A stretch of DNA of 64,000 bases from Blastomyces gilchristii SLH14081 (lineage: Eukaryota; Ascomycota; Eurotiomycetes; Onygenales; Ajellomycetaceae), in NCBI RefSeq assembly GCF_000003855.2, contig NW_003101665.1:248001-312000 (forward strand), written 5' to 3'. The notes under the pieces are model-generated. The model made no database searches. It was given only the letters and a program-made list of their open reading frames with translations, and was not told the DNA's origin. The stretch's first letter is position 1, and each line of letters opens with the position of its first letter. Positions 2,773-61,353 of this stretch are shown here, piece after piece. The position numbers were made by a program, and so were the translations under genes.

Positions 2773-2938
2773 TGTGATTCGGAAGAATGTACAACCGCCG
2801 GAAAATAACGCGGCCGCTTCCGAACATGCTTATGAATGTAAAGGGGCTCTAGCGGCCACTAATTAATTTAGATAATGTATATAAGAAGCCGGTGTATGCC
2901 TGTAATCATACACTGACTCAAGCAATCTTTGAATCACA
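2773..2938 (+). repeat. 5' LTR of Gypsy A1
   Basis: 166 bp, TGTGATTC...GAATCACA. It keeps 9 CpG by my count, including a GCGGCCGC site, against 3 in the 3' LTR. The sequence after it starts TCTGATAGCATG and does not resemble a common tRNA 3' end, so the primer is unknown. Confidence 0.9.
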
Positions 2939-3373
2939 TCTGATAGCATGTCTAAAAACTGGTGAGAAGCGCAGGCTTCTCCAGAACATGATAATTCCAT
3001 CTACAAAGCAATTCATAGTTATCATATCAGTGTGGTTCTAAAAATGCCTCAAAAGATAGGCATATGAAGAGTGATAAGTGAAAGAGCATTCAATTGATGC
3101 TGCTTAACTTGTTGAGGGAAAACTCCATGCTCAGATGAATACCATGTATGATATACAAACAGATGAGATGTGAGAAAGAAGATATAAGTAATGAATCAGA
3201 TTCAAAGAAGTTCACTCTCTATTTAAAAGAAGAATGAAAAGAAGAGTAGCTATCACTGAAGTTGTATAATGATAACAGAAATTATATAATAATATAGTGA
3301 TATAATAATATAGTAATATAATAATATAGCAATATAATAATAGACATTGTATAATTAATGAGAAATCACTGAA
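2939..3373 (+). other. Gypsy A1 leader between 5' LTR and gag
   Basis: Untranslated leader with no recognised gene. It contains a short run of TATAATAATATAG-type repeats near 3285-3345 that is mostly absent from copy A2 (17440-17480), so it is a local microsatellite expansion in A1. Confidence 0.6.
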
Positions 3374-4829
3374 ATGAATATCTTCTCTAGTTAATATAAA
3401 CAACACTCTTCTCTACTATCTGAATCAGAAGATATGCAGAATCTTTCAGAGAGTTTACTCAAAACAGTAAGAAAAGCAGCTGAGATTACTGAACTGAAAT
3501 TGAAGCTCTGTACATGTACAAGAATTCTAAATGAAATTAAGGCCTTGCATACACAGTGACAGACTAAGATGAAAGTGAAATAACAATTAATATTCACTGC
3601 AGATCAAGCATTTACTATGAAGAGCTTCACTGATGCAATCACTATTATTAAGAAGAATAGAGAAAACCAGGTCTTAGATCTACAGTAGAAGATTGAATAT
3701 TTATACAGATAGATAACTATGCTGAATCTGAAGATTGTACTATAATTATTCATAATCTCTTTAGAAGTGTACACATTATCTGAGACTGCTGCACAGAATG
3801 AGAATCTGAGCATGAAATATATCAAGCTGAGAGATCTGTCAGAGTCATTAAGCTTCAATGATAATTAAAATAATAATACTGTAATCAGCTAGCTAAGTCA
3901 GATGTGATTATATTATCAGATTGAATACAAACTTATAGACAGACAGTTAACAGAATTTCAACAAGTCTTAAGATCTGCTGCATTTCTATGCAGAAAAGTG
4001 AAGTTATTATAAATAACTGATGAAAAGATAAATCTCACAGATCTGAAATGATATTCATTCTTATAAATATAGAATGAGTTTTTCAAATAAATCTTACACA
4101 ACTTTGAGAAAGTGAATATATGAAATAAGTATTATGAATGCTTTACTAAGTGTAGATAAATAAGTGATCTTATATTATACTTTATACACTTCAGCTTACA
4201 CTATCTTGTATTGAATGAAGAGCTTTCAACATTTTTCTATTTATAGATCTTTATTCATAATCTTACACTCAAGTTAAGAGTAGAATGAAAATGCTTAATC
4301 TCACAGTCAGATACAGTAAAGAAAGCATATAACATTCTCATTGTATGAGAATAAGTAAGTTAACTGTGATAGAAAATACTGTAATTAAGTATATCTCAAC
4401 AGAGAATAGATAATCAGACTTTCATAATACAAGTTATATACTTCAATACAATGAATCTAGATTTGAATATCATTGCTAAAGCACTGAATTGTCTGAAAAA
4501 GAGATTCTCTGAGTGAAAATCTTGATATTATAAGTATTGAGCTTACTTCAACTGCAGATGCTAAAATCATGATATAAAAGATTACACACAGTGTACACAG
4601 TCAAGAAAACCAAGAGAGTTAAAAAACTAGCAGAATCAGTAAGCTCAGAGACACTTGCTGATATTCTATGAAAAGTCTTCAAAGTGAAAGAGATGTCTGT
4701 GTTAGATGATTCTCTGAATTCTGTGAATATCAAGAGAAAGCAGGCTTCTGACTGAGATGCAGATGAGAATGAAGTGAATACTCATTTCAATACCTTGAGA
4801 TCTGAAATGTTAATATATAAAGAGCACTT
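3374..4829 (+). pseudogene. Gypsy A1 gag, decayed
   Basis: Gag forms the particle that packages element RNA. ATG 3374 matches the ATG at 17518 in copy A2. The first 200 or so codons read as a Lys/Glu/Leu-rich, probably helical protein with scattered TAG, TAA and TGA stops. A CCHC knuckle lies at 4544-4585. There the first and last Cys have become Tyr and a further codon is a stop, whereas copy A2 keeps all four ligands. Frame changes occur between the start and the knuckle, so indels are also present. Confidence 0.75.
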
Positions 4830-5106
4830 GAGTAAGAATTGAGAGATGACTGTTAATGAATACAGAAGTATCTATATAATATATTAATAATTATATGATT
4901 CAAAGACTGAAAGAGGTTCACTGAGTGAAGAATTCTCAATGTATAAGATTATCTGATAATTAATATTTAATATTATCTGTAAGAGTAAGAGTTTCCTTGC
5001 ACTTCAGAGAATGATCTTGCTATATTTGAATGTGAGAGCTGCAGAATATGAAATATAACCTTATTCTCAGACTTAATTGATTTCAAAGATTCAATCTGCA
5101 GACTCA

Positions 5107-5114
5107 ATGATGTA
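5107..5114. repeat. Target-site duplication of the hAT-type insertion in A1
   Basis: ATGATGTA here and again at 5621-5628. Copy A2 has a single ATGATGTA at the matching place near 19252-19259, which is the empty site. Confidence 0.9.
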
Positions 5115-5620
5115 TAGACTGGCCGCCGGGACCATGAATTTCACGTTTGGTCTCATTTGGTCTGGTCCCATACATTTCTTGGCGTGAATCCTGCTGGGAC
5201 TGGCTATCAAAAAAACATGTAAAGTGACTATATATCAGATCTTAAAATGGAACCATGACTTGAAAAAAATGAGAAAGTGGTCTCATTTGGTCTCATTTAG
5301 TCACATTCTTGGCATAAAGTTACTATTTTTAGACATTTTAAGGTTTTTTTTAGACTATTTTTAATTTTTTAAAAAGTAACACTTTTTGATAACACTCAAA
5401 TGAGATTTAAAGTCATTTAAAGCAATAAAAATAATTTAAATTGAGAAGTAGAAATCATGATCCCATTTGGAAAATGTGACAAGAGTAGACAGTAAGTCCC
5501 ACTGGGACAGTATGGGACTACTATCTAATGTTAAAACCGTGTAATGGGATCAGTCGAATTGGTAATGAGACTATCAAAAAATCTGGTCCTGGTCTCAGAC
5601 ACGGTCACACGGTCAGTCTA
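5115..5620 (+). mobile_element. hAT-type non-autonomous element (MITE), copy 1, 506 bp
   Basis: Terminal inverted repeats TAGACTGGCCG and CGGTCAGTCTA (one mismatch) with an 8-bp target duplication indicate the hAT superfamily. No coding frame is present. It is much less AT-rich than the surrounding Gypsy sequence and keeps many GG, CC and CG steps, so it is younger or less mutated than its host. Its first ~90 bp and last ~35 bp match the ends of the 5.8-kb element at 41473-47296, of which it looks like an internally deleted derivative. Confidence 0.88.
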
Positions 5621-8600
5621 ATGATGTACATGTTATATATAATTAACTGATAAGAAGAAAACAGTTCATATAATTCTATTAACTGATATGAGAAGAACAT
5701 TTCATATCTCTGATATAGAAGAATTAAATCTGCTTATACATTAATAAGCAAAGAGAATAATTTACAAGATCTCATTTAAAAGTATTCTGTATATCATACA
5801 GAACCCAGAAGCAGAGAAAATCAAGATAAAGAATATATAAGAGAATAAGTGTATAAAGAAGCTTCTGAAGAAGTATGAAAAGATCTTCTGAATAGATCTT
5901 TCATCAGAATTACTGCTGAAATGAGAATTCATACATGAGATTGATACAGAGAATATGAAATCAGTCAATTAAAATGTGTATTCTCTGTTGCAAATGCATC
6001 TTGAAGAATAGAAGTATCAGATCACAGACCTTGTAGAATATAGTCTTATATAACTCTTATTAAGTATGTGAGACTTTTCAGTTCTATTCATGAAAAAGGC
6101 AGATGAGAAGTGATGAATGTGTATTAATTATTAAACACTTAACAAGCTTATGATCAAGAATGAATACTTATTATCATGAATTCAATAACAGTTGAATACA
6201 GTCAGAAATACCTGATATCTATTGAAGATTGATCTTCTCTCAGAATATTGACAGATCTGTGTAGATGAACTGTCAGTACTGTGAATCATATTTAATATAC
6301 AATGAGAAAAGTGTGAATTTCTGATAATATCATTCAGTCTAATAAATCTGTTCATCATCTTTCAAACAATGATGAATACAATTCTTTATAAATAGAATGA
6401 AATCTTATACCATGTATATCTGAATGACATTCTAGTCTTCTTAAACTTATACAATGAATATCTGAAGTATCTTGATAAAATGCTTACAACTCTGACAGAG
6501 TATAAGCTCTATATTAAATTAACAAAGTGTGTGTTTGAAATGAAAGAGTTGAAGTTTATAGAATATATAGTGAGTGATGACTGTATATATCTCATTCTGA
6601 AGAAATTAAATGTTATAGTGAATTGACTGCAGCTGAGAAATGTGTATTATATATAATAGTTTCTTGAGTTAATCTCATATTACTGCAGATTTATCAAGAT
6701 TTTTACATAAATAGCTGTAGCACTCTCAGATCTCTTAAGAGAAATAGATGCTAATCTGCAGAAGAAGAAGTTTCAGTCAATTATCTGAAATACTGTGTGT
6801 AAAGAGACTTTCTCACACTGAGAGAATATGTATAATCTTCTCAGTGCTTATTCAATCAGATTGCAATAATCTTTCTATATTGAAATAGATATATTTGAAT
6901 GAGCTATCAGAGACACTCTTCTACAGATGAGTAAGAACAGCAAGCTGCATCTGATGATATATAATAGTAGAAAACTATCAGGCACTGAGCTCAATTACTC
7001 AGTGCATGAAGAGAAATTGCTAGTGATTAAGCACACACTGATATTATGAGATAGATATATTGACAACAGATATATGACAATGATAATCACAGATCATGAA
7101 AGCCTCATCTATTTATAATTAATGATAAAACCTTTCAAATACTTAGTATGTTGAATCTCAGAGTTTTAAGTATATAATCTATATACTAAATACTGAAAGA
7201 AATCAAACACTGTAATATCTGATATAATCAGTCACAGACCTGATTTCATGAGTGAGAATTCTGTGAATCAGATATAAGAGAAGTTCATATTAAATGTACT
7301 GAAAGAGTGTAAGAAATCAGAATGAGTAAATATAATGATCTCTCACTTGAAGAATAACAAGATATTGAATAACAAGTATCTTGTAAAAGTGATAGAAGAG
7401 ATACTTTCAAACTTCAAGCTGAGGAAATTGAAAAATGATATTATGTTTTATCACAATCTAGAATATATAGAAGCTCTCTATCTAGAATATTCATTTAGAT
7501 ATAACTTAATAACTCACATGCACAAGGAATTCAGTCACTTAGAAAGCTCTGAACTTATAAGTGTACTCAAATCAAGAGCATACTGATCAAGCATGACTGA
7601 GAATATTCAGATGTATACTCACAAGTGCCTGAATTATCAGGTCATAAAAGAATCTAAGAAAGAATTAGAATGTGAGAAAGTACAATATCAGATAAAGTGT
7701 ATAATATAACTGTTTAAATGATGAAGAGTGAATCTCATAGACATATTACTGTGAATATTAAATGAAAATCATTGAATAATCACTGCTATTGACTACACTA
7801 CTGACTGATCAGTTGCAATAGCAGTTTCAGAGATAATAGAGAAGATAGTGATAAAGTTTCTATATAATAAGATCTATATCAACTATGAAATACTGTATGA
7901 GATTCTAACTGATAATAGTGTGAATCTTATAGAAGAAGCAGTGAGACATTTCATGAGCCAGTTACAGACAAGATATTATAGAACAACAATATATCATTTA
8001 TAAATGAATGGAAAAGTGAAATACTTGAATGAAATCTTGAGTAATATGCTGATGAAATATCTAGTGAGCAAGTCTATAAGATTATGAGATGAATATCTCA
8101 GTCAGGCACTATTAGTCACATGAATTTGACAGTATACAGTCTTCAAGTGTTCACTATTCTACCTGTTGTATGGATTGCATCCGCGCATTCTGAAGAATGT
8201 TTTGAAAAAGATGAGAAAGAGAACAGTGATTGCAGATACAGTAGAAATAACAGTTACAGATGCAACAGTTGCAGATACAGAATCAAGATTGAAAGAGATC
8301 AGTTATACACATGCAAAAGCTAATGAGTTACTCCTGAACTGAGTAATTCAATTAAAAAGAATATGAGACTCACTAGTTAAGAAATTGAGTCTCAAGATAA
8401 GAATGTGTGTTCTTGTATATAATAAGAGTTCTAAGAAGTTTCAATCTAGATGATTTAAGTTATATAAAATACTTAAATCACATTCTCTGAGAATATACAC
8501 ATTGAAAGAATCAGAGAGATAGATCTTATACAACTTAATAAATGATTCACATCTTATAAAGATAAAGATATAAGACTTGAGTGAAATATAATTATTCACA

Positions 8601-9200
8601 GCACTCTCATCATTGTTGAAAAAGAAGAGACTTATAATTGAAAAGTCTTATAAAGTAAGAGAAATTATAGATACTTATAATTCAGATAATCTCACTTATT
8701 TCAATCTTTTCATAATTATAAGAAAAGAATGAGAAGCAATGAAGAAATCAGATAAATATCACACTTTAATAAGTAATGAGACTGTAGTCAGTCATACAAT
8801 AATGTGCTGCAGACAGTAGATGTAATGCAGTAAAGAGCAGTCTCAGAGCAGCAGACTTGCATATGAGTCAGATTGCAGAAGAAAAAGAAATTCAGAGTTG
8901 AATTTGACTATTTATATCAGTTTAATTACAGAGATAACAGACAATGAATCATCTGAAATATTCATGAATATATAAGACCAAGTTATCTCAACTTCTGAGA
9001 ATGCTCAGAGATCAGATGAGATTAGTTTCAATGAGCTTTTCACTATAGTAATCTGAGCAGGTGAAGAGAGACAGTATAATGTATAAGACAGAATTATAAA
9101 AGATGAAAGCTGTTGAATCTAGTCACTGAATACTGTATTATATAGAGATTATATAAGAGTAGTGACTAGCAGATAAAGAAAAAGTGTAAGAAAAGAGAAG

Positions 9201-11341
9201 AGATAATGAATTGATTATTAACTGTAAAAATCAGCTGTAAAAGACAAATGTTATCATACATATCTCATTCATTTTTATATATCACATATTTAATTTATTT
9301 TCAACATCATGTCATCTGAAAAACATCAAAAATAAAGAAAATCTCAAAACTTGAGATCTGTAAGAAATTCAAGAGCTGTAAGCTGCTCTTGTAATAATAC
9401 TGTATATGTCTCTGATTTCTCTACTGCTCTGTGTATAACATTAATATCATTTATCACAAGATTGACTGAAATGCTAATATAGAAATCTGTACATATATGC
9501 ATAGAAAAATTAAAGAAGAGTGCAGAACTTACAGAATTAGAAGTCAGAATAGAGAAGACAGAGATAGAAGAAATGAATGAAGAAGAAGAAGAAGAATTAG
9601 ATAAATAATAATGAGAGTCACTCAGAGCTGAACACTTATAATCTGATATACACACAATCTTTCTCACAGAAGAGAAAGAGAAAGTGATAGAAGAAGCATA
9701 AGAATAGAAGAGAGTAGTCTCAGTGATGTTATTATCTTTGATTAAATTAATCTCTGATACTGGAGCAACTAAGAACTATTATTAGCATATAAAACTGTAA
9801 AAGCAGAGATAACAATTACTGAATGAATATCTGCTGATCTTAGAATTATACACATAATTACAATATGCATGAGACTTCTCAGAAAGAGAGAGAGAGACAC
9901 AGAGAAATGTAGAAAGTAGAACACAGTATATGAACAGCTCATTTTCATAATAACATCTCAGACAAGACATATGAGTCTCACACTTATAAGTGTAAAAAAG
10001 TACAATATCTGTGTTTTTATTTCTGAAAACACAGATATTCTTCACCTGCATTATACAGTCAGATGATAAATGCTAGAGAATAGACTGATACAGATTAATT
10101 ATTCTGAAGAAATTTATCAGAGTGAATATATCTATAATATTGAATTTAACAGTTGTAAAAAGTTTCTTAGTGTCTGTCAACATCATAACTTTATATATAA
10201 TAAAACTTGTAATGATTTTCTCTAAGAATAGAAAAATCAGTATTAAAAAGAAAAGATGAAAAAGAAAAAGACTTACAATCTTAATACTGTTAAGAAGAGA
10301 AGTGATTCTCTGATATAAATAAATAATTATCTTATCATAAATATTTAAAATGAATATAATAATCAGTATTTATAACTGAGCTTTATATAGTTATATTATA
10401 CACAGTCTTCATATAATAAATTATTTTAGAAGTCAGTAAGAAGAACAGAAGTGTATATACTAAGAAACATGATTGATTAAGTCTATACAACATCTTCTTA
10501 CAACAGAAAGAGCTGATAATAAAAGCAGAGATAATAGAAGCAGAGAGAGTAGAAGTAGTAAGAGTAGAGGTTGCAGAAACAGAGGTAGCAGAAGGGAGAG
10601 AATCAGACATAGAGACAGGTGTAGAAGATTAAGAGAAAGTGACAGAGAAAGAAATAGAGAGAGTAGAGAGAAATGTAGAAGACTCAGATATATATAATGT
10701 AAACAATTTCTTTATTATTATATTTCTCAAGTTCTCAACTGATGAATTAATATTGAGATCACGATTATTAATGAATATGAATCTGTCAATGTGTGAAGAT
10801 TCTACATGAATTAAAACAAAATATCAGTATCTGTGTTCATACAAAACATGATCAGATGCCTGCTAGAAAAAGAAGATTAAGAGTATATAAGAAGATGAAG
10901 AAGATGTGTCATTCATAATAGTATGTTCTGATAATTATTAGAGAATAAAAAAGTTCTGATTATATTCTACAATGTGTTACACTCACTGCTAATAAACTGC
11001 TCAGTATGAACACTATAATGATGCTTATTGTGAAAATGAGAGATCATTGTCAGAAATGTGTACAATGTGATAGATGAACAGATAGAAAGTGTTGAATAGA
11101 AGAAGAAGTAGAAATCTTGAATAAGATGATAGCATTTGATGATAATAATGATGAAGAAGATGATTGAAGAATGAAAAAAGTTAGTAAATGAGTGATATAA
11201 TATAGTGAAAGTTTCTTTGTGAGAGTGTATACAGAATGCTAGCTGAATCAGAGATAGACTACACTATTGCAAACACTAGTAACACGCTAATCTGCATGAA
11301 GCTAGAGCATACATCATGATCACATGAGTGTGACTAAATCT
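9201..11341 (-). pseudogene. Opposite-strand reading frame region in the 3' part of Gypsy A1
   Basis: The segment between pol and the 3' LTR reads best on the minus strand. The frame at 9344-9667 encodes a Ser-rich stretch followed by a part ending LTALEFLTDLKF. The frame at 9782-10051 has paired Cys (CLRC) and further Cys. The frame at 10383-10610 is Ser/Thr/Ala-rich. The same peptides in the same order occur in copy A2 at 23017-23232, 23410-23682 and 24011-24478, so they are an original part of family A. Reading frames change between the three blocks, which could reflect introns or decay. The product is unknown. On the plus strand the purine-rich part near 10473-10697 translates as an Arg/Ser repeat, which I consider the shadow frame. 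Confidence 0.5.
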
Positions 11342-11353
11342 GATGAGAGAGAA
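11342..11353 (+). promoter_or_regulatory. Polypurine tract of Gypsy A1
   Basis: GATGAGAGAGAA directly precedes the 3' LTR; the corresponding A2 sequence is GGTGGGAAAGGA. Confidence 0.7.
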
Positions 11354-11519
11354 TGTGATTCAGAAGAATGTACAACTGCTGAATAATAATGCAGTCACTT
11401 CTGAACATGCTTACAAATGTAAAGAAGCCCTAGCGGCCACTAATTAATTTAGATAATGTATATAAGAAGCCGGCGTACATCTGTAATCATACACTAACTC
11501 AAGCAACCTTTGAATCACA
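11354..11519 (+). repeat. 3' LTR of Gypsy A1
   Basis: 166 bp, same ends as the 5' LTR. The half next to the element body has lost every CpG, while the outer half keeps three. It is followed by ACTG (11520-11523). Confidence 0.9.
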
Positions 11520-11752
11520 ACTGCAAGCTTAAAAAGAAGAAACTCTTAACTATTTAAATCTTCAAACTTCAATTCTTTAGTTAAATGTAAACAGAATTTG
11601 AATCCTCAAACTTCTGTTAAGATTAAAGAATTGAGAAATGACTCTGATAATAAATTAGATATAATATAAGCAGTTGAGATTTCTACTTTTCATAATAGTT
11701 ATAATCTACTATCTGATGATAGTGATTAGATTCTACTCTACTCTCTTTTAGT

Positions 11753-16945: not shown

Positions 16946-17112
16946 TGTGGTTCGGAAGAACGTACGACCGTCGGATAATAACGCGGCCGCTTCCAAACTT
17001 GCTTACGAATGTAAAGGGGCCATAGCGGCCACTAATTAATTTAGCGTACAATATATAAGAAGCCAGTGTACGCCTGTAATCGTATGCTGGCTCAAGCAAC
17101 CTTTGAATCACA
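16946..17112 (+). repeat. 5' LTR of Gypsy A2
   Basis: 167 bp. I count 13 CpG, the best-kept copy of this LTR, against 6 in its partner at 25007-25173. Ten of the 13 are in the outer part. Confidence 0.92.
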
Positions 17113-17517
17113 TCTGATAGCATGTCTAAAAACTGGTGAGAAGTGCAGGCTCCTCTAGGACATGATAATTCTGCCTATAAAGTGATTTGTAGTTATCATG
17201 CCAGTGTGATTCTAGAACATCTCAAAAGATAGTGTATAAAGAATGATGAGCAGAAGAGCATCTGATTGATGCTGCTTTACTTGTTGAGGAGAAAACTTCA
17301 TGCCCAGGCAAATACCATGTACACAAATGAATGAGATGTGAGAAAGAGGGATGAGAGCAGTGAACCAGATTTAAAGAAGACTGCTCTTCACTCAAAGAAA
17401 TAAAAGAGAAGAGTGGCCACCACTGAAGTTGTACAATGATAACAAAAATCATATAACAATACAGTGATATAACAATAGATATTGTATAATCAATGAGAAA
17501 CTCTGAAATGAATATCT
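17113..17517 (+). other. Gypsy A2 leader
   Basis: Sequence between the 5' LTR and the gag ATG, about 85% alike with 2939-3373 by eye. No gene seen. Confidence 0.6.
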
Positions 17518-18950
17518 TCTCTAGTTAATACAAACAACACTCTTCTCTGCTATCTGAACTGAAAGATATGCAGAATCTCTCAGAGAGTTTACTCAAAGCA
17601 GTAAGAAAAGTAGCTGAAACTGCTGAACTGAAATCAAAGCACTGTATATATATGAGGATTCTAAATGAGATTGAGGCCTTGTGTATACAGTGACAGATCA
17701 AGATGAAAGTGAAATAATAATTAACATTTACTGCAGATCAAGCATTCACTATGAAGAGTTTCACTGACACAATTGTCATTATTAATAAGAATAGAGAAAA
17801 CCAGATCTTAGACCTGCAGCAGAAGATCAAATATTTACACAGACAGATGACTATATTAAACCTGAAGATCTTATCATGATCATTCACAATCTCTTCAGAA
17901 GTATACATACTATCAGAGATCACTGTGCAGGATGAGAATCTAAGTATGAAATATATCAAGTCAGAAGATCTGCTGAAGTCATTAAGCTTTAATGATAACT
18001 GAAAAAATGATGCTGCAATCAGCTGACTAAGTCAGATGCAATTATATTATTGAATTGAATGTGAACTTACAGACAGATAGTTAACAGAATTTCAATAAGT
18101 CTTAAGATCTGCTACATTTCTATATGAAAAAGTGAAGTTATTATAAATGACTGATAAAAAGATAAATCTCACAGATCTGAAGTGATATTCATTCTTATGA
18201 ATATGAAATGAGTTTTTCAAATGAATCTTGTATAACTTTGAGAAAGTGAATGTATAAGATAAGTATTATAAACACTTCACTGAGTGTAGATAAGTGAGTG
18301 ATCTTATATTATACTTCATACACTTCAGCTTATACTATCTCATATTGAATGAAGAGCTTTCAATATCTTTCTATTTACAGATCTTCATTCATGATCTTAC
18401 ATCTGAGTTGAGAGTGAAATGAAAATGCTTAACCTCATAATCAGACATGATGAAAGAAGTATATAACATTCTCATTATATAGAAACAAGTGAGCTAATTA
18501 TAATAGAAAATACTGTAATTAAGTATATCTCAGTGAAGAATGAATAATCAAACTTCTATGACACAAGTCACATATCTCAATGCAATGAATCTAGATCTGA
18601 ATGTCATTGCTAAAGCATTAAATTCTCTGAAAAAGAGATTTCTGAGTGAAAATCTTGATATTATAAGTATTGAGCTTGCTTCAACTGCAGATGTCAAAAT
18701 CATAGTATAAAAGATTGCACACAGTGTGTACAGTTAAGAAAAGCAAGAGAGTCAAAAAACTAGCAGAATCAGTGAGCTCAGAGACACTCACTGATATTCT
18801 ATGAAAAGTCTTCAAAGTGAAAGAGATGCTCATATTAGATGATTCTCTGAATTCTATGAATATAAAGAAGAAGCAGACTTCTGAATAAAATGTGAATGAG
18901 AATGATGAAGTAGACACTCATCTCAATATCTTAAGACCTGAAATGGTAAT
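17518..18950 (+). pseudogene. Gypsy A2 gag with an intact CCHC zinc knuckle
   Basis: ATG 17518 matches A1. The N-terminal part has the same Lys/Glu/Leu-rich character and several stops. At 18677-18718 the frame reads CFNCRCQNHSIKDC, a complete CX2CX4HX4C RNA-binding knuckle as found at the C-terminus of Gypsy gag. The knuckle is in a different frame from ATG 17518, so at least one indel lies between. Minus-strand frames here (17738-17959, 18681-18917) are shadows. Confidence 0.8.
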
Positions 18951-21900
18951 GTATAAGAGACACTTAAATAAGAATTGAGAGATAACTGTAAAAGTATTAA
19001 CAGATACAGAAGCTTCTATATAATATATTAATAATTATATAATCTGAAGACTGAAAGAGGTCTGTTAAGTGAAGAATCTCTGATATATAAGATTATCTGA
19101 TAATCAATATTTGATATCATCTGCAAGAGTAAGAGTTCTCTTATACTTCAGAGAATGATCTTGCTATATTTGAGTATGAGAGCTGCAGAACATGAAATAC
19201 AATCTTATTCTCAGACTTCATTGATTTCAAAGATTCAATCTACAGATTCAATGATGTACATATTATATGCAATTAACTGATAGAAAGAAAACAGTTTATA
19301 CAATTCTATTAACTGATATAAGAAGAACATTTCATGTCTCTGATATAGAAGAATTAAATCTGCTTATGCATTAATAAGCAAAGAGAATGATTTGTAAGAC
19401 CTCATCTGAAAGTATTCTGTATGTCATACAGGACTCAGAAGCAGAGAAAACTAAGATAAAAGATATACAGAAGAACAAGTGTATGAAGAAGCTTCTGAAG
19501 AAGTATGAAAAGATCTTCTGAACAGATCTTTCACTGAAATTATCACTGAAATGAGGATTTGTACATGAGATTGACATGAGGGATGTAAAATCAGTTAATC
19601 AGAATACATACTCTCTGTCACAAATACATCTTGAAGAACAGAAGTGTCAGATCACAGATCTTCTAGAACATGATCTTATATAACTCTCATCAAATGTGTG
19701 AGACTTTCCAGTTCTATTCATGAAAAAGACAGATGAGAAGTGATGAATATGTATTGATTATCAAGCACTTAATAAGCTTATGATTAAGAATGAATATTCA
19801 CTGTCATAAATTCAATAATAGTTGAATACAGTTGAAAACATCTGATATCTATTGAAGATTAATCTTCTCTCAGAATACTGACAGATTCATGTAGACAAAC
19901 TGTCAGTCTCATAAACTGTGTTTAATATACAATAAGAAAAGTTCAAATTCCTGATAATATTATTCAGTCTGACAAATGCACTCATCATCTTTCAAATGAT
20001 GATGAATATGATTCTTTATAAGCAGAATGAAACCTCATGTCTCATATATCTTGATAACATTCTAGTCTTTTCAAACTTATATAATGAATATCTGAAGTAT
20101 CTTGATAAAGTGCTTATAACTCTGACAGAGTATAAGCTCTACATCAAATCAATAAAGTGTGTGTTTAAAATGAAAGAGTTGAAGCTTATAGAACATGTAG
20201 TAAGTGATGACTGTATACACCTCATTCTGAAGAAATTGAATGTCATAGGAAATTGACTGTGACTGAGAAATATATACTATGTATGACAGTTTCTTGAATT
20301 GATCTCATATTACTGTAGATTCATAAAGAATTTCACATGAATATCTGCATTACTCTCAGATCTCTTAAGAGAAATAGATGCAAATCTGTGAAAGAAGAAG
20401 TTTTATTCAATCATCTGAAATACTGTATGCAAAGAGGCTTTTCTCACATTGAGAGAATATGTAATAATATTCTCAGTGCTTATTCAATCAGATTATGATA
20501 AATCTTTCTACATTGAGATGAACATATCTGAATGAGCTATTGAAGATGCTCTTCTACAGATGAGTAAGAATGACAAGCTGCATCTGATAATGTACAATGA
20601 TAGAAAACTATCAGACACTGAGCTCAATTACTCAGTATATGAAAAGAAATTACTAGTGATTAAGCACACACTGATGTTGTGAAATAGATATATCAATAAC
20701 AGATATATAATAACAGTGATCACAGATTATGAAAGCCTTATCTATCTACAAGCAATGACAAAACCTTTCAAATGCTTAGTATGTTGAATCTCAGAGTTTC
20801 AAGTATACAATCTTCATATCAAATACTGAAAGGAATTGAATACTGTGATATCTGATGCAATCAGTCACAGACCAGATTTCATAAGTGAGAATTCTGTGAA
20901 CTAGATATAAGAGAAGTTCACATTAAACATGCTGAGAGAATACAAGAAATCAGAATGAGTGAATATCATAATCTCTTACTTGAAGAATGATAAGATGTTG
21001 AATAATAAGTATCTTATAAGAGTAGTAGAAGAGATGCTTCTGAACTTCAAGCTGAGAAAATTGAAAAATAACATTGTGCTTTACTGTGATCTAGAATATA
21101 CAGAAGCTTTCTATTTAGAATCTTTATTTAGATGTGACTTGATGACTCACATGCATAAGAAATTCAGTCACTTAGAAAGCTCTGAACTCATGAGTGTACT
21201 CAAATCAAGAGTATACTGGCTAAGCATGGCTGAGGACATTCAGATGTACACTTATAAGTGTCTGAATTATCAGATTGTGAAAGAATCTAAGAAAGAGTTA
21301 GAATATGAGAAAGTGTAACATCAGATGAAGTGTATAATATAACTGTTTAAATGATAAGAGATGAATCTCATAGATATATTATTATGAATATCAAATGAAA
21401 ATTGATGAATAATCACTGCTATTAATTACACTACTGACTGGCCAGTCATGAAAGCAGTTTCAGAGCTGACAGAGAAGATGATAGTGAAGTTTCTATATAA
21501 TGAGATCTATATCAACTATGAAATGCTGCATGAGATTCTGACTGATAACAGTGCAAACCTTGTAGAAGAAGCAGTGAGGCATTTCATAAGCCAGTTATAG
21601 ATAAGATATTGTAGAACAATGTCATATCATCTGTGAATGAATGAAAAGATGAAACACTTGAATGAAATCTTGAATAACATGCTGATGAAATATCTGATGA
21701 GTAAGCCTATGAGACTATGAAATGAATATCTCAGACAGATGCTATTGACCATGCAGATTCAACAGTATGCAGTCTTCAAGTATTCATCATTCTACCTGTT
21801 GTATGAATTGCATCCGCGCATCTCAGAGAATGCTTTGGAAAAGGTGAGGAAGAGAACAGTAGTTACAGATGCAGCAGTAGCAGTTGCAGATACAACAGTT

Positions 21901-22835
21901 GTGAATATGAAATCAAGATTGAAAGAGATCAGTCATGCATGTGTAAAAGCTAATGAGTTACTTCTGAACTAAGCAATTCAATCAAAAAGAATATGAGACT
22001 CACTAGTTAAGAAATCAAGTCTCAAGATAAGAATATAAGTTCTTATATATAATGAGAGTTCTGAGAAGTTTCAATCTAGATGATTTGAGTCATATAAAAT
22101 ACTCAAATCACATTCTCTGAAAATATACACATTGAAAGAATCAGAGAGACAGATCTTACACAACTTAATAAATGATTCATGACTTATAAAAGTAAAGATG
22201 TAAGACTTGAGCAGATTATAATTATTCACAGCACTATTATCAGTATTGAAAAAGAAGAGACTTACAATTGAAAAGTCTTGTGAAGTAAGAGAAATCATAG
22301 ATACTTATGAATCAGATAATCTCACTTATTTTAATCTTTTCATAATTATAAGAAAAGAATGAGAAGAAATGAAGAAATCAGATGAATATCATACTTTAAT
22401 AAGTGATAAGACTGTAGTCAGTTATATGATAATACACTGCAGACAGTGAGTGCAATATGGTAAAGAGTAGTCTCAAAGCAGCAGACTTGCACATAAATCA
22501 GATCACAGAAGAAAAAGGAATTCAGAGTTGAATTTAACTGTTTACATCAGTTCAATCATGAAGACAACAGAGGATGAAGCATCTGAAACACCTGTGAATA
22601 TGTGAGATCAAGCCATTTCAATCTCTGAGAATGCTCAGAGATTGAGTGAGATTAGTTTTAATGAGCTGTTTACTATAGTGATCTGAGCAGGTGAAGAGAG
22701 ACAGTATAATGTGCAAGATAGAATCATAAAAGATGAAAGCTGTCAAACCTAGTCACTGAATACTGTATTATATAGAGATTATGTAAGAGTAGTGACTAGC
22801 AGACAAAGAAAAAGTGTAAGAAAAGAAAAGAGATA
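18951..22835 (+). pseudogene. Gypsy A2 pol: protease, RT, RNase H, integrase
   Basis: The protease active site is DTEA at 19003-19014 (Gly of DTGA changed to Glu). RT covers about 19690-20260. The open frame 19996-20256 holds YLDN at about 20047-20058, so the second catalytic Asp of YLDD has become Asn by a G-to-A change. RNase H is at about 20490-20900 (NYSVYEKKLLVIKH, then VITDYESL). The integrase zinc domain lies in the open frame 20959-21318 (HMHKKFSHL, then YKCLNYQ where the second Cys is Tyr). The core continues to 21739-21972 (FYLLYELHPRI). The C-terminal segment is at 21975-22230, followed by an extension to about 22835. Normal Trp codons survive here that are stops in A1. Confidence 0.88.
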
Positions 22836-22949
22836 ATAAATTAATCATCAACTGTAAGAGTCAGCTGTAAAAGACAAATGTTATCATACATCTCATTCAT
22901 TTTCATATGTCACATGTTTAATCTATTTTCAACACCACATCATCTGAAA

Positions 22950-24478
22950 AACATCAAAAATAAAAGAAATCTTAAAACTTGAGATCTGTAAGAAATTTGA
23001 GAGCTGTAAGTCACTCTTATAATAATACTGTACACATCTCTGATTTCTCTATCACTCTGTGTATGACATTAATGTCATTTATCCCAAGATTGACTAAAAT
23101 GTCAATATAGAAATGTGTATGCATATGCATAGAAAAATTGAAGAAGAGTGCAGAACTCACAGAACTAGAAGTCAGAACAGAGAGAGTGAAGACAGAAGAA
23201 ATAGAAGAAGAAGAAGACACAGAATCAGACAAATAACAGTGAGAGTCATCTGAGACTGAATGCTTATAATCTGATATGCATACAACCTTTTCTGCAGAAG
23301 AGGAAGAGAAAGTGACAGAAGAAGCTTGAGAGCAGGAGAAGATAGTCTCAGTGATATTATCATCTTTGATTAAAATGATCTCTGATGCCAGAGTAACTAA
23401 GAACTATTATTAGTGTATGAAACTGTAAAAGCAGGAATAACAATTACTGAATAAACACCTACTGATCTTAGAATTGTATACATAATTATAACACACACAA
23501 GACTTCTCAGAAAGAGAGAGAGAGATATAGAAGAATACAGAAAGCAGAACACAGTATGTGAATAACTCATTCTCATAATAACATCTCAGACAAGGTGTAT
23601 GAGTCTCATACCTGTGAGTGTAAAAGAGTATGACATCTGTATTCCTGTTTCTGAAAACACAGATATCTTTTGTCTGCATCACAAAGTCAGATGACAGATG
23701 TTAGAGAATAGACTGATATAGATCTATTATTTTAAAGAAATTTATCAGAGTGAATATCTCTGTAATATTAAACTTTATAATTGTAAAAAGTTTCTTAGTA
23801 TCTATGAATATCATGACTTCATACATAATAAAACTCATAATGATTTTCTCTAAGAATAGAAAAATCAGTGTCTGAAAGAAAAGATGAAAAAGAAAAAGAC
23901 TTATAATCTCAACACTGTTGAAGAGGAAGATGATTCTCTGATATAAATGAATGATTATCTTATCATGAATATTTAAAATGAATGTAATAATCAGTGTCTG
24001 TGACTGAGCTTCAGATAGTTATGTTGTATACAGTCTTTATATAATAAATCATTCTAGAGATCAGTAAGAAGAGCAGAAGTGTACACACTGAAAAATGTGA
24101 TTCATTAAGTCTACACAACATCTTCTTGAAATGAGAAGAGCTGATAATGAAAGTAGAGATGACAGAATCAGAGAAAGCAGGGATAACAGAAGCAGAAGAA
24201 CCAGACACAGAGGCAGAGATAGCAGGAGCGGGAGAACCAGACACAGAGACAGATATAGAAGATTAAGAAGAGAGAGCAGCAGAGAAAGAAACAGAGAGAG
24301 CAGGAAGAAATGCAGAAGACTCAGTCACACATAGTATAAGCAATTTCTTCATTATCACATTCTTCAAGTTCTCAATCAATAATTTAATATTGAGTTCACT
24401 ATTATCAGCAGACATGAATCTGTCAATATGTGAAGATTCTATGTGAATAAAAATAAATATATCAGTATCTGCATTCAC
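22950..24478 (-). pseudogene. Opposite-strand reading frame in Gypsy A2, Cys-pair protein of unknown function
   Basis: Read on the minus strand. An N-terminal block, 24478 to 24011, is one frame with a single TAA and is rich in Ser, Ala and Pro. A middle block, 23682-23410, has CLRC and, 30 residues on, CVCYNY. A C-terminal block, 23300-22985, reads KVVCISDYK, then a Ser run, then VNLGINDINVIHR. All three are conserved in A1 at 9344-10610. The blocks are in different frames, so a spliced antisense gene or frameshifts are both possible. I do not recognise the protein. Antisense accessory frames are known in some LTR retroelements, but no homology is claimed. Confidence 0.5.
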
Positions 24479-24994
24479 ATAAAATTGTGTCAGAAAACAT
24501 GATCAGAAATCTACTGTGAAGAAAAATAATTGAGAGTGTATAAGAAGATGAAGAAGATATGTTATTCATGATAGTATATTCTGATAATTGTTAGAAGATA
24601 AACAAGTTCTGATCATGTTTCACAACATATTATACTTACTGCTAATGAACTGTCTGATATGAACATCATGAGAATGCTTGTTATGAGAACAGAGGGCCAT
24701 TGTCAGGAACATATATAATGTGATAGATGAACAGATGAAAAGAGTTGAACAGAAGAAGGAATAGAAATCTTGAATGAGATAGTGACATTTGATGATGACA
24801 ATGATGAAGAAGATGATTGAAGAATGAGAAAAGTTAGTGAATGAGTGATATAATATAGTGAAAGTTTCTTTGTGAGAATGTACACAGAACACTAGTCAAA
24901 TCAGAGATAGATTATAAGATTGCAAATGCTAGTGACATTCTAATCTGCATGAAGCTAGGATGAATATCATGATCACATGAGCATGACTGAATCT
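24479..24994. other. Gypsy A2 3' non-coding segment
   Basis: Matches A1 10800-11340. No frame longer than 90 codons, and none with a recognisable motif. Confidence 0.6.
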
Positions 24995-25006
24995 GGTGGG
25001 AAAGGA
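24995..25006 (+). promoter_or_regulatory. Polypurine tract of Gypsy A2
   Basis: GGTGGGAAAGGA immediately before the 3' LTR. Confidence 0.75.
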
Positions 25007-25173
25007 TGTGATTCAGAAGAATGTACAACTGTTGGATAATAACACAGCCACTTCTGAACTTGCTTATGAATGTAAAGGGGCCATAGCAGCCACTAATTAA
25101 TTTAGCGTACAATATATAAGAAGCCGGCGTACGCCTGTAATCGTACGCTGACTCAAGCAACCTTTGAATCACA
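25007..25173 (+). repeat. 3' LTR of Gypsy A2
   Basis: 167 bp. The first ~95 bp have no CpG while the matching part of the 5' LTR has ten. The outer ~70 bp keep six. ATTC follows at 25174-25177. Confidence 0.92.
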
Positions 25174-27775: not shown

Positions 27776-28090
27776 TGTAAGAAGCCTACACCGAATAGAT
27801 CGGTATAATATTATAGGTTTTATATAACAAAGAGAAAAACATTAGAGAAGGAAAAGAAAGAGAAAGTGCGAGAATCAGTGATTGAAGTGAATATTTATAC
27901 ATGTATATGATGGCCGAGGATCAGTGATTGAGAATGGCTGAGAATCAGAGTGTACACAGTTCGTGGCGGCTGAGAATTGGTGATTGAAAATGACCAAGAA
28001 TCAGAGTGTACGCGTTCGAGAATGCAGTGGTTGGAATCTGTGGAGTGTAATGAAATAGTCTATATGAATGATCGGGCGCAGCTCACCACA
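27776..28090 (-). repeat. 3' LTR of Gypsy B1
   Basis: 315 bp. It contains a 56-bp internal tandem duplication (units start at 27912 and 27968) absent from the B2-B5 LTRs. The outer end keeps CpGs lost at the same sites of the 5' LTR. Confidence 0.92.
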
Positions 28091-33155: not shown

Positions 33156-33166
33156 AATGTTTTTCT
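33156..33166 (-). promoter_or_regulatory. Self-priming primer-binding site of Gypsy B1
   Basis: Two bases inside the 5' LTR, minus strand, is AGAAAAACATT. It is the exact reverse complement of AATGTTTTTCT inside the LTR (33226-33236), which lies where a transcript start is expected. Tf1/sushi-group elements prime reverse transcription by folding the first 11 nt of their own RNA onto such a site. Confidence 0.8.
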
Positions 33167-33168
33167 AG

Positions 33169-33483
33169 TATAAGAGGCCTACACTGAATAGATCAGTATA
33201 ATATTATAGATCTTATATAACAAAGAGAAAAACATTAGAGAAGGAAAAGAAAGAGAAAGTGCAAGAATCAGTGATTGAAGTGAATATTTATATGTGTATG
33301 TGGTGGCCGAGGATCGGTGATTGAGAATGGCCGAGAATCGGAGCGTACGCGGTTCGTGGCGGCCGAGGATCGGCGATCGAGAATGGCCGAGAATCGGAGC
33401 ATACGCGTTTGAGAATGGAGCGGTTGGAATCTGTGAAGTGTAACGGAATAGTCTATATGAATGATCGGGCGCAGCCCGCCACA
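33169..33483 (-). repeat. 5' LTR of Gypsy B1
   Basis: 315 bp. Units of the 56-bp duplication begin at 33305 and 33361. The outer half is rich in CpG; the inner half (33169-33300) has none. It opens TATAAG on the plus strand where other copies have TGTAAG. A TATAAATATTC-like box lies about 55 bp before the predicted transcript start. Confidence 0.92.
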
Positions 33484-35991: not shown

Positions 35992-36300
35992 TGTAAGAGG
36001 CCTACGCCGAATAGATCAGTATAATATTAATAGGTCTTATATAACAAAGAGAAAAACGTTAGAGAAGGAAAGAAAGAGAAAGTGTAAGAATTGACAATCA
36101 GAGTGAATATTTATACACATATATGATGATGTACACAGTGAGGCTTCAGAGTGGAAGAATCTATTCACGTTCATAGCGGCCGAGGATCAGTGATCAAGAA
36201 TGGCTGAGAATCAGAGTGTACATGTTTAAGAATGAAGTGATTGAAATCTGTGAAGTGTAACAGAATAGTCTATATGATTGATCAGGTGCAGCTGATCACA
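35992..36300 (-). repeat. 3' LTR of Gypsy B2
   Basis: 309 bp, lacking the 56-bp duplication of B1. The self-priming donor word keeps its CpG here (AACGTTTTTCT on the minus strand, 36050-36060), probably the ancestral form. Confidence 0.9.
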
Positions 36301-41333: not shown

Positions 41334-41344
41334 AACATTTTTCT
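41334..41344 (-). promoter_or_regulatory. Self-priming primer-binding site of Gypsy B2
   Basis: Minus-strand AGAAAAATGTT, two bases from the LTR. It pairs with AATGTTTTTCT (41405-41415) using two G-T wobbles where a CpG has decayed differently at the two sites. Confidence 0.72.
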
Positions 41345-41346
41345 AG

Positions 41347-41472
41347 TGTAAGAGGCCTACGCTGAATAGATCAGTATAATATTGATAGATCTTATATAAT
41401 AAAGAGAAAAACATTAGAGAAGAAAAGAAAGAGAAAGTGTGAGAATTGATAATCAGAGTAAATATTTATACA
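41347..41472 (-). repeat. 5' LTR of Gypsy B2, inner piece
   Basis: Starts TGTAAGAGGCC on the plus strand and breaks at TTTATACA, the target duplication of element E. The other piece is 47305-47487. Confidence 0.9.
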
Positions 41473-48152: not shown

Positions 48153-48424
48153 TCTGGCGGGCTGCGCCTGATCAATTATATAGACTATTTCATTACACTT
48201 CACAGATTCCGCTGAAAGCTCCGATTCTTCAGTCACTGATTCTTAGCTGAAAAACTCATGAAATTCCTATTCTTCTGCTCTGAAGCTTTACTATGTACAT
48301 GTATAAATATTCACTCTGATCACTGATTCTCATACTTTCTCTTTCTTCTCTTCTCTAATGTTTTTCACTTTTGTATTATAAGACCTATATATTATACTGA
48401 TTCATTCAGTGTAGGCCTCTTACA
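48153..48424 (+). repeat. 5' LTR of Gypsy B3
   Basis: 272 bp, ending GGCCTCTTACA. It opens TCTGGCGGGC where the family has TGTGGCGGGC. It contains TATAAA at 48302-48307 and the predicted transcript start word AATGTTTTTCA at 48357-48367, leaving a 68-nt R-U5 part. Confidence 0.9.
48302..48307 (+). promoter_or_regulatory. Candidate TATA box in the B3 LTR
   Basis: TATAAA, conserved in all family-B LTRs as TATAAATATTCA, 55 bp upstream of the self-priming word. Confidence 0.5.
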
Positions 48425-48426
48425 CT

Positions 48427-48437
48427 TGAAAAACATT
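48427..48437 (+). promoter_or_regulatory. Self-priming primer-binding site of Gypsy B3
   Basis: TGAAAAACATT, two bases after the LTR, exactly complementary to AATGTTTTTCA at 48357-48367. The last base pair differs from B1 (A-T swapped), and both partners changed together. Confidence 0.82.
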
Positions 48438-53537: not shown

Positions 53538-53808
53538 TGTGATGAACTGCACTTAATCAATTATATAGACTATTTTATTACACTTCACAGATTTCACTGA
53601 ACACTCTAATTCTTAGTTATCAATTCTCAGCTGAAAAACTCATGAAATTTCTATTCTTTCACCCCGAAGCTTCACTGTGTATGTGTATAAATATTCACTT
53701 CAATCACTGATTTCTGCACTTTCTCTTTCTTTTCTTCTCTAATATTTTTCACTTTTGTATTATAAGATCTATATATTATATCAATCTATTCAGTGTAGAT
53801 CTCTTACA
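53538..53808 (+). repeat. 3' LTR of Gypsy B3
   Basis: 271 bp. It starts TGTGATGAAC where the 5' LTR keeps GGCGGGC, so its inner end is more decayed than the outer end of its partner. Confidence 0.9.
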
Positions 53809-53813
53809 GTTAT

Positions 53814-55700: not shown

Positions 55701-56009
55701 TGTAAGAGGCCTACGCTGAATAGATTGATATCATATTGATAGGTCTTATATAACAAAGATAAAAATGTTAGAGAAGGAAGGAAAGAGAAAGTGCCAGAAT
55801 CAGCAATTGAGATGAATATTTATACGCGTATGTAGTGGTGTATGCAGTGGAGCTTCGGGGCGGGAGAATATATGCGCGTTCATAGTGGCTGAGAATCAGC
55901 AATTGAGAATGGCTGAGAATCAGAGCATATGTGTTTGAGAATGAAGTGATTGAGATCTGTGAAGTGTAATGAAATAGTCTATATAATTGATCAGGCACAG
56001 CCTGCCACA
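55701..56009 (-). repeat. 3' LTR of Gypsy B4
   Basis: 309 bp, same subtype as B2. It has fewer CpG than the 5' LTR (about 7 against 12 by eye). Confidence 0.9.
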
Positions 56010-61031: not shown

Positions 61032-61042
61032 AACATTTTTAT
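61032..61042 (-). promoter_or_regulatory. Self-priming primer-binding site of Gypsy B4
   Basis: Minus-strand ATAAAAATGTT, two bases inside the LTR, exactly complementary to AACATTTTTAT in the LTR (61103-61113). Relative to B1 the second base pair from the end is changed by a transversion in both partners. Confidence 0.82.
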
Positions 61043-61044
61043 AG

Positions 61045-61353
61045 TGTAAGAGACCTATGCTGAATAGATTGATATCATATTAATAGGTCTTATATAACAA
61101 AGATAAAAATGTTAGAGAAGGAAGAAAAGAGAAAGTGCAAGAATCAGTAATCAAGGTGGATATTTATATGTGTGTGTGATGATGTACACAGTGGAGCTTC
61201 AGGGCAGGAGAATATACGCGCGTTCGTAGCGGCCGAGGATCGGTGATCAAGAATGGCTGAGAATCGGAGCATACGCATTCAAGAATGAAGTGGTTGAGAT
61301 CTGTGAAGTGTAACAGAATAGTCTATATAATTGATCGGGCGCAGCCCGCCACA
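61045..61353 (-). repeat. 5' LTR of Gypsy B4
   Basis: 309 bp. The outer end keeps CGGGCGCAGCCCGCC almost untouched. Confidence 0.9.

Follow-up and report, generated by a model that had tools for sequence, protein, structure and literature searches.

Family B Elements in the Analysed Window

The window, by which we mean the whole stretch of 64,000 nucleotides that was analysed (G000:C18:248001-312000, from a genome of 74.8 Mb in 75 contigs), is composed mostly of AT-rich repeats and carries four decayed copies, B1 to B4, of an LTR element family that we refer to as family B. The coordinates of the LTRs, of the LTR words and of the primer binding sites (PBSs) are collected in Table 1. Target duplications of 5 bp were read for B1, B3 and B4, that of B3 (GTTAT) lying at the end of the 5′ flank and directly after the 3′ LTR, and the LTRs terminate in CTTACA in B2, B3 and B4 and in TTATA in the B1 5′ LTR.

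Table 1. Coordinates of family B features, given as positions of the window.
Feature	Position	Strand	Basis or remark
B3 5′ LTR	48153..48424	+	self-BLAST pair 48162-48427 / 53547-53811; ends read
B3 TATAAAT box	48302..48308	+	55 bp before word
B3 self-primer word AATGTTTTTCA	48357..48367	+	presumed first 11 nt of RNA
B3 U5 inverted repeat with arms CCTA/TAGG and CTGA/TCAG, lying between word and PBS	48380..48421	+	fold, arm counts
B3 gap CT, 2 bases, LTR end to PBS	48425..48426	+	
B3 PBS TGAAAAACATT	48427..48437	+	
B3 3′ LTR	53547..53808	+	start is the BLAST alignment start
Word of B3 3′ LTR	53741-53751	+	CA class, like the 5′ word
B1 5′ LTR	33169..33483	-	starts TG; target duplication ATAAG; self-BLAST, ends read
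B1 self-primer word AATGTTTTTCT	33226..33236	-	
B1 PBS AGAAAAACATT	33156..33166	-	
Word in B1 3′ LTR	27833..27843	-	CT class, like the 5′ word
B2 self-primer word AATGTTTTTCT	41405..41415	-	matching LTR stretch only 126 nt
B2 PBS AGAAAAATGTT	41334..41344	-	two G.U pairs with the B2 word
Word in B2 3′ LTR	36050..36060	-	CT class, like the 5′ word; CpG retained
B4 5′ LTR	61045..61353	-	TG...CA; target duplication AAGAA; self-BLAST, ends read
B4 self-primer word AACATTTTTAT	61103..61113	-	
B4 PBS ATAAAAATGTT	61032..61042	-	
Word in B4 3′ LTR	55759..55769	-	AT class, like the 5′ word

The first-pass annotation of this DNA had described in all four elements an 11-base word placed 2 bases past the 5′ LTR and complementary to a word within the LTR, 68-69 bases before the LTR end and downstream of a TATA box. 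The pairs are present as written; pairing is perfect (11/11) in B1, B3 and B4 and includes two G.U pairs in B2. The gap between LTR and PBS is CT in 4/4 elements, the LTR end lies 68 or 69 bases from the word start in each of them, and a TATAAAT box was found 54-56 bp upstream of the word in 88/92 loci, none being found in the other 4. When the LTRs of B1, B3 and B4 were dinucleotide-shuffled and searched with the 11-mers at 7 start positions around the LTR end (beginning, in the B4 control, 4 bases inside the LTR), an 11/11 match occurred in 0/300 shuffles for each element. The words of the 5′ and 3′ LTRs are of equal class, as defined below, in 4/4 window elements.

Over the whole window (1-64000), strong depletion was seen for CG, CC and GG (0.12, 0.25 and 0.26 of expected) and enrichment for CA, TG, CT, TC, AG and GA, but not for TA (0.86). 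Depletion of CG, CC and GG without TA enrichment is unlike textbook RIP; contrary to such a non-RIP pattern, C/T differences among family B copies lie mostly before A (134/229 columns). A second LTR family, with LTRs of about 170 bp and elements of 8.2-8.8 kb, is located at 2773-11523 and 16946-25173; TCTGATAGCATG follows its 5′ LTR (2/2 read), and no complement was seen by eye in its own LTR.

Collection of Family B Copies

Family B is present in hundreds of genome places. A search with the B3 LTR returned 44 matches from 3,159 first-look candidates (40 scored), and 30 loci were cut out of the 44 listed. Patterns built on the PBS alone matched 282 genome places of AT type and 503 of AG type, from which 30/282 (29 kept, L046 being without an upstream LTR) and 30/503 were taken. 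A PBS-free pattern, with the LTR end fixed and the 11 PBS bases left free, found 346 genome places, and among the 100 of these that were listed every PBS word belonged by eye to the TG, AG or AT class or was a mutated form. From the same 100 we chose all 37 rows of contig C3, retaining 36 of them, together with 15 of the 21 rows of contig C2, taken in order from the first; the LTR word was unseen at the time of choice. L101, which coincides with L019, was removed from this set and its C-A mismatch at position 10 with it; the mismatch remains in the counts under L019. Selection had rested on the PBS for the AT and AG sets and on LTR plus PBS for the first 30 loci; the fair sample is therefore the 51 PBS-free rows.

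PBS words beginning with C or G occur at 8 genome places, of which the five from family B were taken and four kept, L129 having lost its LTR word; the other three are not family B by sequence. Two further places of the three with a GTAAAAA PBS and three window copies were also included, B3 being left out as the same place as L001.

Paired Changes at Positions 10 and 11

Both words were extracted from 149 distinct copies and examined for co-variation, a check that the first-pass annotation had suggested and that holds at both positions distinguishing the classes, the PBS-free set included. Named by word end and PBS start, four paired classes were found, CA/TG, CT/AG, AT/AT and the rare AC/GT, with no difference between them at positions 1-2 and 5-9. 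At position 11, T-A was read in 101 copies, A-T in 42, C-G in 2 and T.G in 4 (145 Watson-Crick and 4 G.U), while position 10 showed C-G in 94, A-T in 47, T.G in 5 and C-A in 3 (141 Watson-Crick, 5 G.U and 3 C-A). The mutual information between the two words over 147 copies was 0.890 at position 10 and 0.896 at position 11, values reached by 0/500 shuffles. Words fitted the PBSs of other copies of their own class in 6,184/6,654 combinations, against 168/13,942 combinations across classes. One-sided cells at the two positions numbered 12 in the 149 copies, 9 of them still G.U-paired and 3 C-A, and all 8 at position 10 fit decay by C-to-T or G-to-A change; a fixed mismatched class was not found among the 149.

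The 51 PBS-free rows comprised 24 CT/AG, 14 AT/AT, 11 CA/TG, one TA/TG and one TT/AG, with Watson-Crick pairs at position 11 in 51/51 and at position 10 in 49/51, the remaining 2/51 being G.U. All nine non-CpG positions were paired (Watson-Crick or G.U) in 45/51 of these rows and in 135/149 of all copies (123/149 by Watson-Crick pairs alone), leaving at least one mismatch outside CpG in 14/149. A complete Watson-Crick match of 11/11 was retained in 11/51 PBS-free rows and in 42/149 copies overall, or 83/149 counting G.U, the loss occurring mostly at CpG. The paired observation is confirmed as real and extends well beyond the four copies in which it was made.

Independent Drift at the CpG Positions

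The result was different at positions 3 and 4, where the mutual information over 147 copies was 0.012 and 0.014, values reached by 392/500 and 196/500 shuffles. The TG/CA differences at these positions had been counted as covariation as well; the partners vary without relation to each other, and we dropped this part of the claim. Paired differences between copies therefore stand at positions 10 and 11 and fail at the CpG, and the independent drift of both words, which the first-pass annotation had named as a refuting sign, is seen at positions 3-4 and not at positions 10-11. The CpG is intact in few undecayed words, such as those of L106 and of the B2 3′ LTR, and the differences are read as independent decay after insertion. 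The CpG serves as an internal control, the same 11-mer holding two freely drifting and two locked positions.

The AC/GT Class

The AC/GT class surfaced in the searches made on the PBS alone. L133 shows GTAAAAATGTT facing AACATTTTTAC, a perfect 11/11 pair, and in L130-L132 a PBS G stands opposite an unchanged T as a G.U pair, with an additional adjacent C-A mismatch in L130. Both the PBS of L133 (GTAAAAA) and its LTR word occur at 3 genome places each; two of the three words are L133's own and another in the same orientation at a distance of 5.4 kb, presumed to be that of the L133 3′ LTR. AC in the 5′ LTR word together with 11/11 pairing was found at 2/3 places with the GTAAAAA PBS (L133 and L150). 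In L149 the 5′ LTR reads TTTTTAT, and 5.3 kb further downstream the same strand carries a TTTTTAC word; since this distance is the usual LTR spacing, the 5′ word of L149 has probably decayed from C to T. A small AC/GT subfamily is located at G000:C32:248622-254051, C2:5346212-5351575 and C3:654215, the flank CTTCAA being common to the three 5′ LTRs.

Structure of the Leader

The limits of the helix were examined over 129 copies, in which the place shared by L019 and L101 is contained twice. Position 0 was paired in 4/129 (1 Watson-Crick and 3 G.U), position 12 in 2/129 (G.U) and position 13 in 0/129; past these unpaired neighbours, position 14 forms an isolated T-A in 128/129 and position -1 is paired in 29/129. 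The 11-bp helix is bordered by unpaired bases. Folding of hand-picked copies returned the helix between word and PBS in 11/11 and, by our own reading, a CTGA/TCAG hairpin in 7/11, and the fold of the B3 leader gave a z of -3.25, with 1/200 shuffles equally stable. In a column-based count the CTGA/TCAG stem of U5 was present in 85/148 rows with arms mostly invariant or changed on one side, so that the arm counts neither support nor refute it. A third duplex of the Tf1 type scored no better than shuffled sequence (5.75 vs 5.66) and was rejected.

Number of Independent Changes

Trees were built for 92 rows from purine/pyrimidine-coded U3 or internal sequence, with word and PBS excluded and with decayed words labelled by their class of origin (TA as CA, TT as CT). 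The classes required 10 changes on the U3 tree and 12 on the internal tree, where shuffled labels averaged 43.7 and 43.8, and a second U3 tree required 9. Independent pairs on supported branches of the U3 tree numbered one each for positions 10 and 11, with both sides changed, and on the internal tree position 10 had three among the counts listed, both sides having changed in all; at the CpG positions, word and PBS changes did not go together on supported-branch pairs, again among the counts listed. A clade test on the internal tree rejected CT as one clade (p 0.0014), rejected AT weakly (0.045) and did not reject CA (0.058). Since the four classes can be linked by only three changes, most of the pairing agreement is shared descent, and the independent co-changes are few, 1 to 3 per position on supported branches among the counts listed, not dozens.

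Coding Remains

Ten stop-to-stop pieces of the window copies were profile-searched separately with curated cut-offs applied. Matches were obtained below these cut-offs to RT_RNaseH_2 (22.4 bits), to SH3_Tf2-1 (20.3 bits against a cut-off of 30, in a piece of B1) and to rve (15.6 bits), the last lying 3′ of the first; no retroelement family was found in the remaining seven pieces and no RVT match in the two pieces taken for reverse transcriptase (RT). After the SH3-like piece a chromodomain-like tail broken by stops was seen by eye in B1-B4, and the domain pieces suit a chromovirus without proving membership; from its sequence, family B looks like a chromovirus-like Ty3/Gypsy family. The first two tryptophans expected in the chromodomain are stops in B1-B4 (TGA, and once TAG in B3), and the third is TGG in B1. 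In the long open exon of the host actin gene, which lies elsewhere in the genome and matches solved actins, the tryptophans are TGG. Taken with the size of the genome and the type of element, this suggests that the host is a filamentous fungus.

Genome-wide, none of the 150 scored SH3_Tf2-1 places and 13 Chromo places was assigned to family B. The SH3_Tf2-1 place near L019 was judged by eye to belong to another element, and L019 itself (G000:C3:2448270-2451631) is a B3-type element apparently lying inside the coding part of another Gypsy-like element, past its SH3-like region.

Proposed Mechanism and Alternative Explanations

Direct observation covers the 11-bp complementarity and where it stops, its constant location, and the paired change of positions 10 and 11 in four classes. 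The first-pass annotation had proposed self-priming as in Tf1 and the sushi group; covariation over 149 copies, the helix limits and the fixed placement of the word support this mechanism, and we consider Tf1/sushi-type self-primed reverse transcription to be very probably the best explanation for family B. Because the PBS pairs with the presumed RNA start of the element and both words change together, self-priming is favoured over a host tRNA. By analogy with Tf1, from which we infer the RNA start at the word, the cut and the priming, transcription would start at the AAYR word 55 bp past the TATA box, and the first 11 nt would fold back, aided by the U5 inverted repeat, onto the PBS 2 nt beyond the 5′ LTR. 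RNase H would then cleave after nt 11, RT would extend the freed 3′ end through U5, and the extra 2 nt (CT) might later be taken off by integrase. A further copy from the same class, acting as primer in trans, would account for the data equally well.

In one survey, tRNA priming is used by most plant Ty3/Gypsy and Copia elements (PMC6317226). Priming here might likewise be by an intact or halved host tRNA, or by some other Pol III transcript, the LTR match being incidental. A few copies of the CA/TG class do start with TGG (L004, L025, and 1/100 of the listed PBS words). The classes themselves start with TG(A), AG, AT and GT, none with TGG, and an outside primer matching the site would have to contain UUUUU, a Pol III stop signal. 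Nor does such a primer account for a PBS that covaries with the LTR word across four classes. In the window, ARAGORN found 0 tRNA genes and 0 Rfam families reached the gathering score. We dropped the tRNA primer on the grounds of the missing TGG start and the required UUUUU, and regard outside priming as extremely improbable. Descent alone, with subfamilies carrying complementary differences that have no function, would agree with classes that largely cluster on the U3 and internal trees and imply few independent events, and with the PBS G of L130-L132 opposite a T that stayed unchanged. It is nevertheless very unlikely, as at every step between classes (C/A for position 10, T/A or T/C for position 11) each partner became the precise complement of the other, also in the fourth class. 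Moreover, 9 of the 12 one-sided cells remain G.U-paired, the 8 at position 10 follow the direction of decay, and the CpG within the same words displays unlinked change.

A further reading keeps self-priming and asks only how the pairing is maintained, and is a version of the preferred explanation, not a competitor: plus-strand synthesis would copy the attached primer into the new PBS, so that pairing is kept by copying and not by selection. In Tf1 the primer may remain attached during reverse transcription. The lack of a fixed mismatched class in 149 copies and the limitation of class differences to primer nt 10-11, the 3′ end joined to new DNA, favour copying; with decayed copies it is inseparable from selection, and its range is unreadable because positions 1-2 and 5-9 are equal across classes. 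We hold maintenance by copying to be possible, if rather doubtful. More specifically, and only as a tentative and somewhat unlikely suggestion, the self-primer, or its last approximately two ribonucleotides left on the minus strand, might be copied into the daughter PBS and the pairing inherited in each cycle, which would explain both the restriction of class differences to the primer 3′ end and the absence of a persisting mismatched class. If true, any change at nt 10-11 would rewrite the PBS within one cycle, and the lineages would be separate primer "alleles" in one genome.

Comparison with Known Self-Primed Elements

In the papers considered here, self-priming is established on Tf1 and elsewhere mostly inferred from a complementary match. 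Among the matches listed in a literature search, titles and abstract openings contained no report of natural paired change in self-primed elements. The point of interest in family B is the co-existence of four primer words with paired change restricted to the primer 3′ end: one genome with hundreds of copies provides a natural mutate-and-compensate experiment, which offers recognition of self-priming by sequence alone and a data set for telling selection from copying in each cycle as the way in which the PBS is maintained.

The first 11 RNA bases of Tf1 are complementary to its PBS and the cut falls between bases 11 and 12 (PMC7175516), and Tf1/Tf2 possess a chromodomain, their primer:PBS duplex being accompanied by two adjacent duplexes of the LTR (PMC10085805). 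As in these elements of Schizosaccharomyces pombe, the complementarity is 11 long in family B, where its neighbours are unpaired. Unlike them, family B has another host and other words, four word classes per genome and decayed window copies, its RNA start and cleavage are predicted, and the third duplex of Tf1 is unsupported. On the basis of sequence, self-priming has been predicted for the Copia TAR lineage and for most elements of the Tcn1 clade (PMC6317226), and it has been proposed for Tcn1 of Cryptococcus (PMC7175516); for the spikemoss element SM-Tcn1, neither priming by a tRNA nor self-priming is reported to have been found (PMC2864245). The likeness of family B to the Tcn1 clade and TAR is that self-priming is predicted from sequence. 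For Tj1 of S. japonicus, Tosmo1-3 and Tcry1, self-priming was proposed from sequence, the PBS being complementary to what is presumed to be the 5′ end of the mRNA (PMC4600332, PMC10085805). Tj1 is active whereas family B is decayed, yet family B occurs in hundreds of places and its covariation is therefore testable.
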